Shown here in pieces: positions 31,318-38,631 of a DNA stretch of 64,000 bases (within the stretch, counting starts at the first letter, position 1; each line of letters begins with the position of its first letter). Location: positions 1-64,000 of the forward strand of contig JACQAM010000008.1 in assembly GCA_016194975.1 (NCBI GenBank), given 5' to 3'. The notes beneath the pieces were generated by a model that did no database searches, was not told the DNA's origin, and saw only the letters and a program-made list of their open reading frames with translations. A program made the position numbers and the translations under genes. This stretch comes from Bacteroidota bacterium (lineage in GTDB: Bacteria > Bacteroidota > Bacteroidia > Palsa-965).

Positions 31318-32199
31318 TTAAAGAATATTGAATTCATCAGTATCCAATCCCAGAGGAAAACTTTTCCGGAATTCATTCAGCAATTGCGCAGAAAGTTTTA
31401 CTGAAGTAACCTCTTCTTTATTCACCACCGAATATTTCATGTATGCTCCTTTGAAATCAATGATCGCGGTATCGCCCGAGTGAAAAATAAAATGTCCATC
31501 GTTGCCGATCCGGTTCACGCCGATAACATAACATTGATTTTCCATTGCGCGCGCCATGAGTAAAGTCTTCCATGCCTGCGCGCGCATTTCCGGCCAGTTG
31601 GCAACATAAATAAGCGCATCATAATCTGCAACAACGTCTCTTCCGTTTTTTGTCCAGCGATTCCTGCTCCACACCGGGAAACGCAGATCGTAACAGATCA
31701 TCGGACAAATTTTCCAACCGTTGAGTTCTACGATCAGTTTATTTTTTCCTGCTTCGTAATGTTTGTCTTCTCCTGCCATTCTGAACAAATGACGTTTCGC
31801 ATATTTTTCAAGACTTCCGTCGGGCCGTACCCACAAAAGCAGGTTGTAATATTTTCCCTGTCCGACCGGGTCATCCCCGTCCGTACCCCGTCCGAATGGC
31901 TCGTCCGGGCGGGCGGCACGGGCGGGCGGGCGGGCATTCTCTTCCGCAATGAAACTTCCGGTAACCACTGCGTTGTACTTCGCCGCCTGCGTACGCATCC
32001 ACGCGAGTGTTTTTCCATCAACAGGTTCGGCCAGTTTTTCCGGCGACATGGAAAATCCAGTCGTGAACATTTCCGGGAGAATAATGAGATCGGTCTTCTC
32101 TCCGATCTTTTCCATCAGCCGTTCAAACATAATAAAGTTGGCCTGCTGGTCTTCCCAGTGGAGCATCGATTGAATCGTGGTGACGGTAATATCTTTCAT
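31318..32199 (-). CDS. omega-amidase (nitrilase superfamily, YafV/Nit2-like) with a 26-residue insert
   Basis: This carbon-nitrogen hydrolase has the Glu-Lys-Cys triad: ILPEMFTTGFSM (Glu42), KRHLFRM (Lys) and MICYDLRFPVW (Cys). Omega-amidases hydrolyse alpha-ketoglutaramate and similar amides made by glutamine transaminases; such an aminotransferase gene lies at 37474. Between EEN and GKYYN, where homologues are continuous, lies an insert of 26 residues (78 bases, 31858-31935) of very high GC rich in Arg, Pro, Ala and Gly. It is a multiple of three and keeps the frame. It may form a surface loop. Confidence 0.88.
   Translation of the reverse strand: MKDITVTTIQSMLHWEDQQANFIMFERLMEKIGEKTDLIILPEMFTTGFSMSPEKLAEPVDGKTLAWMRTQAAKYNAVVTGSFIAEENARPPARAARPDEPFGRGTDGDDPVGQGKYYNLLLWVRPDGSLEKYAKRHLFRMAGEDKHYEAGKNKLIVELNGWKICPMICYDLRFPVWSRNRWTKNGRDVVADYDALIYVANWPEMRAQAWKTLLMARAMENQCYVIGVNRIGNDGHFIFHSGDTAIIDFKGAYMKYSVVNKEEVTSVKLSAQLLNEFRKSFPLGLDTDEFNIL
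31858..31935. repeat. 78-bp GC-rich in-frame insert in the omega-amidase gene
   Basis: The block is mostly G and C, whereas the flanks are near the local average. It contains repeats such as GGGCGGGCGG and (on the minus strand) GGACGGGG twice. It encodes residues that interrupt the conserved GSFIAEEN...GKYYNLLLW region. Confidence 0.7.
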
Positions 32200-32347: not shown

Positions 32348-34066
32348 ATGAATATCTCACCCAATGCACTGACTGTTTTGCAAAGCCGTTACCTGTTGCG
32401 GGATAATGCAGGAATGCTTTGCGAAGATCCCGTTCAGTTATTCCGTCGTGTTTCGAATGCTATGGCGCGATCGGAAAAAAAATTTGGTGGCGATGAAAAA
32501 AAAGTTGCGGACGAATTTTATGAGTTGATGAGTTCACTGCGTTTTCTTCCGAATTCTCCTACGCTGATGAATGCAGGAACACCAAAGCAGCAACTGAGCG
32601 CATGTTTCGTTTTGCCGGTGGAAGATTCGCTCAATGGAATTTTCGATACGCTGAAACATGCCGCGCTCATTCACCAGAGCGGAGGCGGAACAGGATTTAA
32701 TTTTTCGAAGATCCGGCCGAAGAATGATTTTCTCCCCGATTCGGGAGGAACTGCTTCCGGACCTTTATCATTCATGGAATTATTCGACGCCTCGACCGAG
32801 CGCATCAAGCAGGGAGGAAAACGCCGTGGCGCAAACATGGGAATTCTCAATTGCGATCATCCGGACATTGAGGAATTTATTTCATTCAAGAAAGATCCGC
32901 TGGCGTTGCGCAATTTCAATATTTCTGTTGGGGCGGGCGATGCATTTCTTCGTGCGGTAGAAAAAAATGAATCGTGGAATCTTGTTCATCCCGGGAGCGG
33001 CGCTGTGACGAAAACTATTTTTGCAAAAGAATTATGGAATAAAATAATTGACAATGCATGGGCCACCGGCGATCCGGGAATGATTTTCATAGATGCTATT
33101 GAACGTGCAAATCCGACTCCAAAGCAGGGCGCTATCAATTGTACAAATCCATGCGGAGAAGTTCCTCTGCTTCCTTACGAAGCGTGTAATCTCGGCTCTG
33201 TCAATCTTTCCCTTTTTGTAATGCGGAAAAATAATTCTGCGGCCATCGATTATGATACACTGGAGAAAACGATTTTTTCTGCCGTGCGATTTCTCGACAA
33301 TGTGGTGGAAGAGAATAATTACATTCTTCCTGAAATTGAATCAACCGTAAAACGCAACCGCAAGATCGGCCTGGGTGTAATGGGCTGGGCAGAAATGCTG
33401 ATCAAGCTCGGAATTCCTTACGCAAGTGAAGAAGCGGTTTCACTCGGGAATTCGTTAATGAAATTCATCAATGAAATTTCGGAAAGGGCATCTGAACTTC
33501 TTGCAAAAGAGCGCGGAAATTTTCCGGGATGGGCCGGAAGTATTTTTTCCTCGCGTACACCTGTGCGCAACGCAACGCGTACCGCGATCGCGCCTACGGG
33601 AACGATAGGTGTTATCGCGAACACTTCTCCATCTATCGAACCGCTTTTTGCACTTGCCTTCCGGAGGGAACATGTGCTGGGCGGGAAAACGCTGTTGGAA
33701 ATAAATGAAACGGGAAAAAAATTACTTGAATCAAAAGGGTTGTATTCCAATACAACCATGAACACGATCCTGGCCGAAGGAAGTATTGAACATACTGCTC
33801 TTCCCGGCGAAATAAAATCATTGCTTCAAACTTCGCACGCGATCGCGCCCGAATGGCATTTGCGCCACCAGGCCGCCTTCCAGCAGTACACGGATAATGC
33901 TGTTTCGAAAACGATCAATCTCCCGAATAACGCAACACGCGGGGACATTTCAGAAATTTACATGCGCGCCTGGAAAATGAGATTGAAAGGGATCACTGTT
34001 TTCCGAGATGGATGCAAGCCACAAGTGATGAATGCGGGGACGAGTTGTGAAGTTTGTGTGAGTTGA
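32348..34066 (+). CDS. nrdJ: class II (adenosylcobalamin-dependent) ribonucleotide reductase
   Basis: This reductase of 572 residues is the compact class II type. The conserved cysteine in QQLSACFVLP (Cys86) and the NPCGEVPLLPYEACNLGSVNL segment (about 264-284) form the active-site cysteines. HQSGGGTGFNFSKIRP and KRRGANMGIL are binding-loop features. CEVC at 567-570 supplies the C-terminal redox pair. No subunit with a radical cofactor is adjacent, as expected because adenosylcobalamin generates the radical. The requirement for B12 links it with the riboswitch-controlled uptake operon at 6.8-11.8 kb. Confidence 0.93.
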   Translation: MNISPNALTVLQSRYLLRDNAGMLCEDPVQLFRRVSNAMARSEKKFGGDEKKVADEFYELMSSLRFLPNSPTLMNAGTPKQQLSACFVLPVEDSLNGIFDTLKHAALIHQSGGGTGFNFSKIRPKNDFLPDSGGTASGPLSFMELFDASTERIKQGGKRRGANMGILNCDHPDIEEFISFKKDPLALRNFNISVGAGDAFLRAVEKNESWNLVHPGSGAVTKTIFAKELWNKIIDNAWATGDPGMIFIDAIERANPTPKQGAINCTNPCGEVPLLPYEACNLGSVNLSLFVMRKNNSAAIDYDTLEKTIFSAVRFLDNVVEENNYILPEIESTVKRNRKIGLGVMGWAEMLIKLGIPYASEEAVSLGNSLMKFINEISERASELLAKERGNFPGWAGSIFSSRTPVRNATRTAIAPTGTIGVIANTSPSIEPLFALAFRREHVLGGKTLLEINETGKKLLESKGLYSNTTMNTILAEGSIEHTALPGEIKSLLQTSHAIAPEWHLRHQAAFQQYTDNAVSKTINLPNNATRGDISEIYMRAWKMRLKGITVFRDGCKPQVMNAGTSCEVCVS

Positions 34067-35373: not shown

Positions 35374-36438
35374 CTATCCTCCCAATAGAAAATGTAACGG
35401 CCACGGGAGTTTTTTCCACCAGCTTCTCTTCTTCAGTTCAAAAAGTATCGCGCAGAGCGTGATCATTAACAGTGCGAAACAAACATAGAGAATCAGAAAT
35501 TGTTTGGTAGGATAATTCGTGCAGTATTCATCGAGCACAAATGAAATGATGGCCGAGTGAACGATGTACACGAACAAACTTGCAGAGCCGAGATAGCGGA
35601 GCAATTGCAATCCATAGCGTGGTTTGAAAAACTGCATCATCGTTACTCCGATAATGATCGCACCGAGTGCAGCGCACAAGTATGGAATTCCTGCAGGATA
35701 AAATAATTCACTGTATCCTTCACGCCCTTCGTCGCCGGGACGATGATAATACATCCATGTTATTCCACCGAGAAAAGAAATAATTCCGAGAGGGAAAAAT
35801 ATTCTCCACATTTTCGAGAACACAGCACCATGTGAATAGACGAGCGATCCTGCCATGGTGAATCCGAGCCACGGAAAAACAGGGAACCATCCATCCACGA
35901 GCCAGCTCTTGAACCACCACATCATTCCTGTTGGAAGCGGCGGGGATGCCGGATCGACGAGCGAATGTTCATTCACGCCCGTGCGATATCCAACGAAGTG
36001 CTGGAGAATTGGTCCCATTGCAAAACAGATGATCATAAAAAAAATTCTTACACCAACATTTGTTTTCAAAAGAATCGCGCTAACAAGAATTCCGAATGCG
36101 GTGAGATATAAAACATCGAACGTGGTGAACGGAACTATTCTCCAGATGAGCCAGTCGATGAGTGCAGCTACTGCAAAAATTTCCAACGCACGTTTCAGAA
36201 AATAAAGTGGCGGATGTTTTTTTGATCCGATGCCAACCATGAATCCAGCGAGGAAAACAAATATTGGAGCAGCGAACGATCCGTAAATGCGAATGAGATA
36301 ACTGTGAGGCGCCGCTAAACTTTCTGCCGCTGAATTTGCGCACAGCATAGTGAAAATGGCAACGCCGCGAAAAATATCAATGGAAGGATATCGTTTGAGA
36401 TGATCTGTTGGGATGTGATCGAGAATCTTTGTTGACAT
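35374..36438 (-). CDS. DUF1624/HGSNAT-like membrane acyltransferase
   Basis: This integral membrane protein of 354 residues has about ten helices. It opens RYPSIDIFRGVAIFTMLCAN, the motif (D.FRG) of the DUF1624 / heparan-alpha-glucosaminide N-acetyltransferase-like family. PWLGFTMAGSLVYSHG and YLGSASLFVYIVHSAIISF are further matches. The family transfers acetyl groups across the membrane to a sugar or amino acceptor, but the acceptor here is unknown. The gene is 3 bases after the ion-channel-like gene and is the third of a tight minus-strand operon. Confidence 0.82.
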   Translation of the reverse strand: MSTKILDHIPTDHLKRYPSIDIFRGVAIFTMLCANSAAESLAAPHSYLIRIYGSFAAPIFVFLAGFMVGIGSKKHPPLYFLKRALEIFAVAALIDWLIWRIVPFTTFDVLYLTAFGILVSAILLKTNVGVRIFFMIICFAMGPILQHFVGYRTGVNEHSLVDPASPPLPTGMMWWFKSWLVDGWFPVFPWLGFTMAGSLVYSHGAVFSKMWRIFFPLGIISFLGGITWMYYHRPGDEGREGYSELFYPAGIPYLCAALGAIIIGVTMMQFFKPRYGLQLLRYLGSASLFVYIVHSAIISFVLDEYCTNYPTKQFLILYVCFALLMITLCAILFELKKRSWWKKLPWPLHFLLGG

Positions 36439-36441
36439 ATA

Positions 36442-37464
36442 TTATCCGATAATGATCCAATGCGCAACGCCATAAATAATTAATAACAATCCGCAACAAA
36501 CCATATCGAATATCTGCGAACGGTAATTACGATCTTCCTTCTTGCGTATCGCATTCGAAATAATACTGAACACGATGCTCAGCAGAATAAGTGCGAACGT
36601 TACATCATGTAATTTATCCACGATCGTAAACGAAGAATGATCGGGCAAGGAAGAATCGACGATGTATTTATTGCCGACAGAAGCAAAGAGCGCGCCGACA
36701 GCGAGACTCGTTCGTGCGCCGATCTCATTTCCATCGAGGAAGAAAACAGAAAGCGCAATTAAAAAAGCCACATACAATCCGAGAAATAATTTCAGAAAAA
36801 TATTTTTACTCACACGCTCAATGCGCGTACTGATGGACAGGCGTGCGTAGGAACTGTTTCCTTTCAGCGTGGGATCGCCGTACGTGGTGTTGTACGTGTA
36901 AATGGAAGGAACTAATTTGAAATGGGAAATTTTCCAGCCGTTGAGTTCTACCGATTTATCAATTTTAGAATTCGCGGTATCGGCAATGTAAACTAATTGC
37001 GAAGTATCCATATCCGTTTCTTCGAGCAACACATCCAGTGTTTGTCCGTCGAGCGGGAAACGCTGAATGTCCCAGTTCTTTTTGATCATCGCCGAACATT
37101 TGTGCGTGGCCCAGTACACATTTCCTTTCAGCTCCGTAGTTGCAAAATCGCGCGACACACTTTCGGAATTCACGATCTCCGTTGTCTCGAGCGGCTTGAG
37201 TGTAGAATCTTTGAAAATATACCACACCCAGTAATCGATGCCGAAATCATTCTGCGCGAAACCGAGACTGTAGATCGACGTTACATAAATTCCCACCATC
37301 ACCGTGTCTTTGTGTGTTGCTTCGTCATCTTCACTTGCAAGCGTGTCTGCAACAATTGCGGTGGTATCTGCTTTTACATTTTTTTTCGTTTGCGCAAAAG
37401 CGGAGGCAGGAATGAGAATGGAAATGCAGAGAAAAAACCTGAGGAGAAAATTTCGCATGGGCAA
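36442..37464 (-). CDS. pentameric ligand-gated ion channel (Cys-loop receptor) homologue
   Basis: This 340-residue protein has the full architecture of a bacterial pentameric ligand-gated channel. It has a signal peptide (1-25), an extracellular beta-sandwich (about 50-218) and four helices (about 221-243, 249-270, 282-305, 319-338). Markers are YSLGFAQNDFGIDYWVWYIF (first strand), RFPLDGQTL (the conserved Pro/Asp/Gln loop motif of GLIC-like members), SVELNGWKISHF and the M2-M3 linker SSLP. Bacterial members lack the disulfide, as here. M2 begins GARTSLAVGALFASVGN, with 25 residues from the Ala to the LP turn, as in glycine receptors. It lies 9 bases after the aminotransferase gene, probably in one operon. 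Confidence 0.88.
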   Translation of the reverse strand: MPMRNFLLRFFLCISILIPASAFAQTKKNVKADTTAIVADTLASEDDEATHKDTVMVGIYVTSIYSLGFAQNDFGIDYWVWYIFKDSTLKPLETTEIVNSESVSRDFATTELKGNVYWATHKCSAMIKKNWDIQRFPLDGQTLDVLLEETDMDTSQLVYIADTANSKIDKSVELNGWKISHFKLVPSIYTYNTTYGDPTLKGNSSYARLSISTRIERVSKNIFLKLFLGLYVAFLIALSVFFLDGNEIGARTSLAVGALFASVGNKYIVDSSLPDHSSFTIVDKLHDVTFALILLSIVFSIISNAIRKKEDRNYRSQIFDMVCCGLLLIIYGVAHWIIIG

Positions 37465-37473
37465 ATTTACACT

Positions 37474-38631
37474 TTATATTTTCTTGAGAATCTCCGCAGC
37501 TTTCTCGAGCGTATCATCTTTCTTCGCAAAGCAGAAACGGAGCATATTGTCATAAACCGGCTTGTGATAGAAAACAGAAATAGGAATCGCGGCCACTCCA
37601 TTCTCTTTCAGCAAACGCACGGCGTAGTCCGTATCTTTTTCTTTTGTGATCTTGTCGTATTGCAGCAATTGGAAATAAGTTCCCGGGCTTGGCGTCAATT
37701 TGAATTTCGATCCTTTGATCAGCTTGTTGAATTTATCGCGCTTCTTCTGGTAAAAATTACCGAGATCGAGATAATGTTTTTTATTCTTCAGGAATTCTGC
37801 GATACCGTACTGCATAGCGCTGTTGCAGGTGAAAACAAGGAACTGGTGAACCTTGCGGAATTCGGCCATCAGTTCTTTCGGCCCGATGCAATAACCGATC
37901 TTCCATCCCGTGGTGTGAAAAGTTTTTCCGAATGAAGAAACGATCAGCGAACGTTTCGCAAGATTCGGATATTTCGCCATGCTCTCATGCAGATTTCCAT
38001 CGAAGAGAATATGTTCATACACTTCATCAGAAAGAATGATAATGTCTGTATTCTTCGTCAGTTTCTCCAACTGCTTCATGTCATCCGGTTTTAAAACGGC
38101 GCCGGTAGGATTGTGCGGAGTGTTGATGATGATCATTCGCGTGTGATGATTCACCACTTTCTTCACTGCGTTCCAGTCGATGGAATATTCCGGCGCAGTG
38201 AGTTGCATGTAAATTGTTTTTCCGCCGTTAAGTTCTATCGCCGGCTGGTAACAATCGTATGCCGGTTCGAAAATGATCACTTCATCTCCTTCGCGTACAC
38301 ACGCGGTGATAGCCGTGTAGATCGCTTGTGTTGCGCCTGCTGTAACTGTAATTTCAGTATCGGGATCATACGTTGCTCCGTAAAGTTCACTGGTTTTTTC
38401 CGCGATGCGTTCGCGCAGAACAGGAACACCGGGCATAGGCGCATACTGGTTATATCCTTTTTTCATTGCCGCATTCACAAGATCCACTAATTCAGGAGGG
38501 CAATTGAAATCGGGAAATCCCTGGGAAAGATTGATCGCGTTGTGCTCTGCAGCAAGTTTCGACATCACGGTAAAAATGGTGGTGCCTGTGCGCGGAAGTT
38601 TGGAATTCAATGAGCCGGGAAACTGGGGCAT
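37474..38631 (-). CDS. PLP-dependent aminotransferase (methionine/glutamine transaminase-like)
   Basis: This fold-type I aminotransferase (385 residues) has the PLP lysine in SSFGKTFHTTGWKIGY (Lys236), the Asp in ILSDEVYEHI, and NTPHNPTGAVL. It opens LPRTGTTIFTVMSKLA and has INLSQGFPDFNCP, as in YbdL/KYAT-type enzymes that transaminate methionine and glutamine with keto acids, including 4-methylthio-2-oxobutanoate. The omega-amidase at 31318 could consume the alpha-ketoglutaramate product. It is first in an operon with the ion-channel homologue and the DUF1624 acyltransferase. Confidence 0.92.
   Translation of the reverse strand: MPQFPGSLNSKLPRTGTTIFTVMSKLAAEHNAINLSQGFPDFNCPPELVDLVNAAMKKGYNQYAPMPGVPVLRERIAEKTSELYGATYDPDTEITVTAGATQAIYTAITACVREGDEVIIFEPAYDCYQPAIELNGGKTIYMQLTAPEYSIDWNAVKKVVNHHTRMIIINTPHNPTGAVLKPDDMKQLEKLTKNTDIIILSDEVYEHILFDGNLHESMAKYPNLAKRSLIVSSFGKTFHTTGWKIGYCIGPKELMAEFRKVHQFLVFTCNSAMQYGIAEFLKNKKHYLDLGNFYQKKRDKFNKLIKGSKFKLTPSPGTYFQLLQYDKITKEKDTDYAVRLLKENGVAAIPISVFYHKPVYDNMLRFCFAKKDDTLEKAAEILKKI

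Follow-up and report, generated by a model that had tools for sequence, protein, structure and literature searches.

A Bacteroidota homologue of pentameric ligand-gated ion channels and its recurrent membrane acyltransferase neighbour

Bacterial members of the pentameric ligand-gated ion channel (pLGIC) superfamily have long been used as structural models of nerve receptors, though their natural function and ligands are largely unexplained. Solved structures include those of GLIC, ELIC, sTeLIC and DeCLIC, and GLIC is a cation channel with Glu at position -2' of the pore helix M2. According to the survey by Jaiteh et al. (2016, PMC4795631), the seven most conserved residues of the superfamily are the three of the F/YPxD motif, an aromatic residue in beta9, the pre-M1 Arg, the M1 Pro and the M2-M3 Pro. 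The Pro-loop proline of [F/Y]PxD is given there as the sole absolutely conserved proline of the superfamily, the kink proline of M1 occurs in 77% of the members and is Gly in 5%, and position 9' of M2 is Leu in 75% and Phe in 13% (PMC4795631). Tasneem et al. (2004, PMC549065) proposed that the genes next to those of bacterial pLGICs can encode partners which take part in the handling of ligands; for their ART-LGICs, the accessible part of that paper names PBP or Cache domains and a Na+/H+ symporter, unlike the acyltransferase described here. HGSNAT, a member of the TmAT superfamily of membrane acyltransferases (PMC11199644, PMC12423673), uses H297, D307 and N286 to pass an acetyl group of acetyl-CoA from the cytosol, by way of a pore in the membrane, to an amine in the lumen (PMC11199644).

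We analysed a stretch of 64,000 nucleotides (the window) from a Bacteroidota bacterium (GenBank assembly GCA_016194975.1, contig JACQAM010000008.1). It is virtually certain that one of its genes, with the following features, encodes a pLGIC homologue.

36442..37458, minus strand: pLGIC gene, 338 aa from the ATG (340 aa from a TTG start at 37464); match to GLIC at 1e-8 alone and at 1e-21 as clade profile
37393..37458, minus strand: predicted signal peptide, residues 1-22 (MRNFLLRFFLCISILIPASAFA), within the hydrophobic segment 1-24; cleavage site placed by eye
37048..37059, minus strand: Pro-loop motif FPLD, residues 134-137, without Cys-loop cysteines; from the alignment
36736..36804, minus strand: M1 helix, residues 219-241, with G227 in place of the kink proline; from model, hydrophobicity and alignment
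36643..36720, minus strand: M2 pore helix from -2' to the M2-M3 proline, residues 247-272 (GARTSLAVGALFASVGNKYIVDSSLP); ungapped with GLIC and GlyR, with GNKY signature
36544..36630, minus strand: M3 helix, residues 277-305; from alignment, model and hydrophobicity
36448..36513, minus strand: M4 helix, residues 316-337; from model and hydrophobicity

The original prediction had described a 340-residue protein at this locus and had left its strand unstated. The ORF exists with 340 codons when read on the minus strand from TTG 37464 to the stop at 36442; ATG 37458, which gives 338 aa, is the likelier start. The plus strand at the same coordinates proved rich in stops in an ORF check. The predicted gap of 9 bases to the stop of the aminotransferase gene applies to the TTG start and becomes 15 bases with the ATG, and the predicted 3 bases to the ATG of the acyltransferase gene are correct. 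Residues 1-24 are hydrophobic and end with ASAFAQ, three more hydrophobic segments match M1, M3 and M4, and the amphipathic segment 248-272 matches M2, in agreement with the proposed signal peptide and four helices. The motifs RFPLDGQTL, SSLP and GAR were all found in the protein. The gene is present as one copy in the 4.1 Mb genome. The closest named relative of its product belongs to an uncultured Flavobacteriales bacterium (L005, 79% identity), and comparison with a 78%-identical orthologue revealed strong purifying selection (pN 0.15, synonymous sites saturated).

In a phmmer search against PDB sequences, the window protein matched GLIC and GLIC chimeras at 1e-8 to 1e-7. The NCBIfam matches (LGIC_1, 8.8e-14; LIC, 2.4e-11) were under the curated cut-offs, none of which was reached: the scores were 17.0 of 26 bits for PF02931, 16.5 of 28.1 for PF02932, 51.6 of 500 for NF033918 and 43 of 280 for TIGR00860. 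A clade profile built from 19 sequences, the window protein and 18 relatives, matched the chain of a GLIC-GlyR chimera over its full length (profile positions 27-313, E 1e-21), and its M2 aligned without gaps with those of GLIC and GlyR up to the M2-M3 proline. The signature residues F134, P135, D137, W175, R215 and P272 are present, P135 and D137 being invariant in 19 of 19 aligned sequences and W175, R215 and P272 invariant or nearly so across the clade. The kink proline of M1 is replaced by G227, and Gly occupies this position in all 18 sequences of one clade alignment. In M2, position 0' is R249 and position 9' is F258. A Cys loop was considered and rejected, as C121 lies too far upstream and has no partner cysteine. 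The AlphaFold model was weak (pLDDT 43, pTM 0.34) because its alignment consisted of two sequences; at this low confidence, it places some ten strands and four helices correctly, which corresponds to the predicted beta-sandwich and four-helix topology. With this model, the Foldseek matches shown were all pLGICs (GLIC at E 8e-13), in a search that partly uses sequence too. Membership in the pLGIC superfamily is thus supported by sequence, by conserved residues and by the fold in the weak model.

GLIC, the best PDB relative in both kinds of search, resembles the window protein in its length, in the ungapped M2 and in having neither a Cys loop nor a cytoplasmic domain. The two differ in that identity is about 20%, in the Gly of the window protein at the M1 proline, in Gly versus Glu at -2', in F9' versus I9', and in GNKY at 13'-16'. 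The M2 sequence of the clade departs from that of the best-matching solved channel. ELIC, sTeLIC and DeCLIC are likewise bacterial pLGICs with solved structures, but in a tree with their Bacteroidota relatives they are separated from the window clade by a long, well-supported branch; the other acyltransferase-paired branch described below resembles sTeLIC and DeCLIC. Glycine and GABA-A receptors share the superfamily, a basic residue at M2 0' and a T and a D where M3 begins with the window protein, which in contrast to them has no Cys loop, no M3-M4 domain and no PAR motif.

At -2' to 0', the window protein carries GAR in place of PAR, and it has no Cys pair. GAR and the M2 length of 25 from Ala to LP had been taken as a hint of an anion channel, which did not hold up. 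This length is equally that of GLIC, since the M2 of the clade aligns gap-free with both GLIC and GlyR, and GAR is private to the window protein and its sister. Position -2' is D or E in 14 of the 16 aligned sequences that have it, and Gly only in these two. As the other 14 are acidic here, like GLIC with its Glu, GAR is a local departure and cannot serve as a mark of anion selectivity. The inference of anion selectivity was therefore rejected; its two indications are non-discriminating, and the motif is not predictive in prokaryotes.

By their sequences, the window protein and its relatives form a patchy clade, mostly of Bacteroidota, which has its own M2 signature and usually falls under the Pfam cut-off. 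The signature reads R0' x G2' L x V G6' x [LI] F9' A10' x [VI] G13' N14' K15' Y16' I17' x [DE]19' S20' x x P23', and in M3 the residues T278, D281 and H284 are invariant among the Bacteroidota members. The nearly invariant Asn-Lys at 14'-15' is unusual for a pore helix, as is its combination with the invariant D281 and H284; in animal receptors, these two positions of M2 face the anaesthetic/alcohol cavity, not the pore. When ten clade members, the window protein included, were scanned singly, only L029 scored above the cut-off of PF02931 (Pfam LBD). Relatives at 30-40% identity are scattered, with 2 of 12 genomes in the family of the window organism. A profile search of the class detected a pLGIC in 33 of 395 genomes, the profile also collecting other pLGIC branches. 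Plasmids of Azospirillum and Streptomyces carry relatives at about 30% identity, and two plasmid members of the clade are annotated 'hypothetical protein' in public records. In a tree of 42 proteins, a long branch with support 99/97 split the clade from ELIC/sTeLIC-like Bacteroidota proteins, the placement of the long-branched plasmid members being less secure. The clade may already be contained, without a name, in the set of the 2016 survey (PMC4795631). One genome (G665; L112-L114) has four pLGIC copies, two of them in tandem, and ORFs of 698-744 aa show partial-length matches to the pLGIC profile (L164:3565-5661, L165:3734-5830, L166:4066-6300, L167:4103-6325). No relative turned up when viral contigs were scanned twice, and PADLOC gave no defence match for the channel, its acyltransferase partner or the next gene.

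The neighbours of the channel gene that had to be considered are the following.

35374..36438, minus strand: partner gene for an HGSNAT-type (TmAT superfamily) membrane acyltransferase, 354 aa; HGSNAT_cat at 6e-15, recurrent pLGIC neighbour
37474..38631, minus strand: methionine-aminotransferase-type gene; NCBIfam PRK09082 at 4.9e-180, chance neighbour
31318..32199, minus strand: nitrilase/omega-amidase-type gene; NCBIfam PRK10438 at 1.5e-74, original partner of the aminotransferase

The original prediction had considered a ligand derived from amino acid or keto acid metabolism, and in the window the aminotransferase and channel genes are indeed on the same strand and only 15 bases apart. This adjacency is not conserved among relatives. 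In four channel-free genomes of the same family (G003, G005, G006, G008), the aminotransferase orthologue is followed directly by the nitrilase gene, with no acyltransferase gene either, which makes the aminotransferase an accidental neighbour of the channel. The interval between aminotransferase and nitrilase is occupied by the channel and acyltransferase genes in the window and in the sister species (G001), and in the sister species an antisense gene parts the aminotransferase from the channel. None of the channel relatives outside the window genus adjoins this aminotransferase. We thus consider it very improbable that the channel senses an amino or keto acid on which this aminotransferase acts. 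Near the channel in G088 lies an aminotransferase-like gene, which has only 23% identity to that of the window and was judged to be a different gene. The aminotransferase-nitrilase interval is a variable insertion site; in G007 it contains the antisense gene seen in G001 and a ribonucleotide-reductase-like gene. The latter (32348-34066 in the window) lies in the interval here and in G007, and not in G001 or four other genomes of the family. The window nitrilase has an in-frame insert of 27 residues (ARPPARAARPDEPFGRGTDGDDPVGQG; 31855-31935), which the sister protein lacks and of which there is no second copy in the window.

The case for the acyltransferase neighbour proved stronger than had been claimed, since this gene is a recurrent partner of pLGIC genes. 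Its subfamily is rare and was found in 2 of 12 genomes of the family, the two that have the channel, in 1 of 148 genomes of the phylum with a single-sequence search and in 9 of 395 genomes of the class with a three-sequence profile. HGSNAT_cat in general gave 38 matches in 20 genomes; among these, the gene of G515 is the sole one outside the window genus that adjoins a channel. In G515 (family f20), UPF0114, acyltransferase and channel genes stand in a row with overlapping ends. In G257 (f65; L172:455-1009), a pLGIC gene without its N-terminal half overlaps the acyltransferase gene at a contig end. In G710 (f100; L155:970-4969), a Castor/Pollux-type channel gene, a pLGIC gene of the other branch and the acyltransferase gene (4-base overlap) form a tight run, with two channel types in one apparent operon. 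Loci of the first round without an adjacent pLGIC were those of G574, G561, G484, G027, G586 and G426. A second round, confined to f20, yielded ten new acyltransferase loci, six of which adjoin a pLGIC gene: in G840 (gap of 7 bases), G764 (2) and G867 (0), divergently in G860 (68 bases), and convergently in G730 (4-base overlap) and G821 (218 bases). In G745 and G740 the acyltransferase gene is not adjacent to a pLGIC gene, and the loci of G805 and G813 end at contig edges. A neighbour in G267 that starts like a related acyltransferase was left out of the count, as it has no Pfam match. Because the f20 lineages are related, the six pairs do not represent six independent events.

The pairing spans four bacterial families and every orientation, i.e., both co-directional orders, divergent and convergent, and the paired channels fall into two deep pLGIC branches split with 100/99 support. 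In the tree, the well-supported branches alone require at least four gains or losses of the pairing. If one in 3500 genes encodes a pLGIC, the chance that 3 of 7 non-window lineages show adjacency is about 7e-9, an estimate that takes the lineages as independent; f65 and f100 may not be, and 2 of 7 gives about 7e-6. Roughly half of the known loci of the subfamily lack an adjacent pLGIC gene, the acyltransferase was found beside a pLGIC in just 4 of the 33 pLGIC-bearing genomes of the class, and most pLGICs of the clade have no such partner. Taken together, the gene arrangements point to a real functional link between pLGIC and acyltransferase, which we consider highly probable.

The window partner passes the Pfam HGSNAT_cat cut-off (55.8 bits versus 22, E 6e-15) and also matches Acyl_transf_3 at 3e-12. 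N286 and H297 of HGSNAT align with its N35 and H45, and are thus kept, whereas D307 aligns with S54. In the partner subfamily, the TmAT motifs (DxxR, N at the N286 position, DVLY, GWFP) are mostly retained. The equivalent of H297 is missing from six paired acyltransferases and D307 aligns with Ser or Thr, so the enzyme activity of the partner is uncertain.

The best explanation of the locus as a whole, to which we assign a probability of roughly 55%, would be a bacterial pLGIC subunit that works with an adjacent TmAT-type acyltransferase making or destroying its ligand. We infer the pentamer, its gating and conduction, the enzyme activity and the link to the ligand as follows. The pLGIC subunit would be exported by means of its signal peptide, inserted in the inner membrane and, on the model of GLIC and ELIC, assembled to a homopentamer whose beta-sandwich lies on the periplasmic side. 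The M2-lined pore (S2', G6', F9', G13', Y16'/I17') would open when a small periplasmic molecule binds. The acyltransferase would pass an acyl group from cytosolic acyl-CoA across the membrane to a periplasmic acceptor, and either its product or this acceptor would be the channel ligand, which the enzyme makes or destroys. Of these parts, conduction is the more secure one: the window protein is probably a conducting channel. That the acyltransferase acts on the ligand of the channel is plausible, and we hold it only tentatively.

In the main rival reading, the acyltransferase-like protein would not be a ligand enzyme but a subunit that assists the channel or its assembly, like NACHO or RIC-3 for nicotinic receptors. 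Genes that overlap or nearly abut in many pairs would fit such a role, as would the loss of the catalytic His from six paired copies in which the other fold motifs persist. Against it speak the TmAT motifs, whose retention for the most part suggests an enzyme, the unpaired half of the subfamily loci and the absence of the partner from most pLGICs of the clade. We regard an auxiliary role as possible but less likely.

A pLGIC fold that no longer conducts, serving as a ligand sensor or a structural membrane protein, could account for the features that speak against a channel, namely the M1 helix without its kink proline, which has Gly instead, the N14' and the charged K15' in M2, and the glycine-rich pore face. 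Yet few parts of the clade proteins are as conserved as the Pro loop, the pre-M1 Arg, the M2-M3 Pro and M2, and -2' is acidic in most members; conserved coupling residues and a conserved M2 are the opposite of what loss of conduction predicts, and we regard this alternative as unlikely. Joint horizontal transfer of both genes as a cassette, with no shared function, is less likely still. It would agree with the patchy distribution and with the joint lack of both genes in the other ten genomes of the window family, but four arrangements (both co-directional orders, divergent and convergent) across two deep pLGIC branches require that the genes came together repeatedly, which transfer as one passive cassette would not explain. 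A pLGIC working with an acyltransferase that makes or destroys its ligand thus remains our preferred reading.

Other genes stand next to relatives of the window pLGIC. In two genomes of one genus of family f89 (L034:5736-8792, L035:5880-8910), genes for an FMN reductase, a pLGIC related to the GNKY clade and a flavin amine oxidase with a Tat signal lie on the same strand with gaps of 6-27 bases, the amine oxidase gene being 6-11 bases past the channel. A penicillin-amidase-type gene is located 9-10 bases past the pLGIC gene in f15 (L033:6541-9922, L045:4034-7414), and an alanine racemase gene follows the channel in Azospirillum. In f11 (L106:4010-7171, L107:4211-7352), a gene for a subtilase with a Por_Secre_tail secretion-system sorting domain is found 4-12 bases past the pLGIC gene. 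The amine oxidase, penicillin amidase and alanine racemase neighbours are weak hints of amine or amide chemistry.

The recurrent pairing of a TmAT partner with pLGICs, among them those of a clade marked by an M2 signature of its own, was found in no open-access paper; the open-access literature contained nothing relevant on Bacteroidota pLGICs or on a link between pLGICs and acyltransferases. The recurrent partner limits the search for natural ligands to what an acyl-transferring membrane enzyme can make or remove. More speculatively, the two genes might constitute a dedicated Bacteroidota signalling unit, with a periplasmic messenger, acylated or an amine, that the TmAT generates or inactivates and the pLGIC converts to an ion current. 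If true, this two-gene unit would be a bacterial counterpart of a transmitter enzyme and its receptor.
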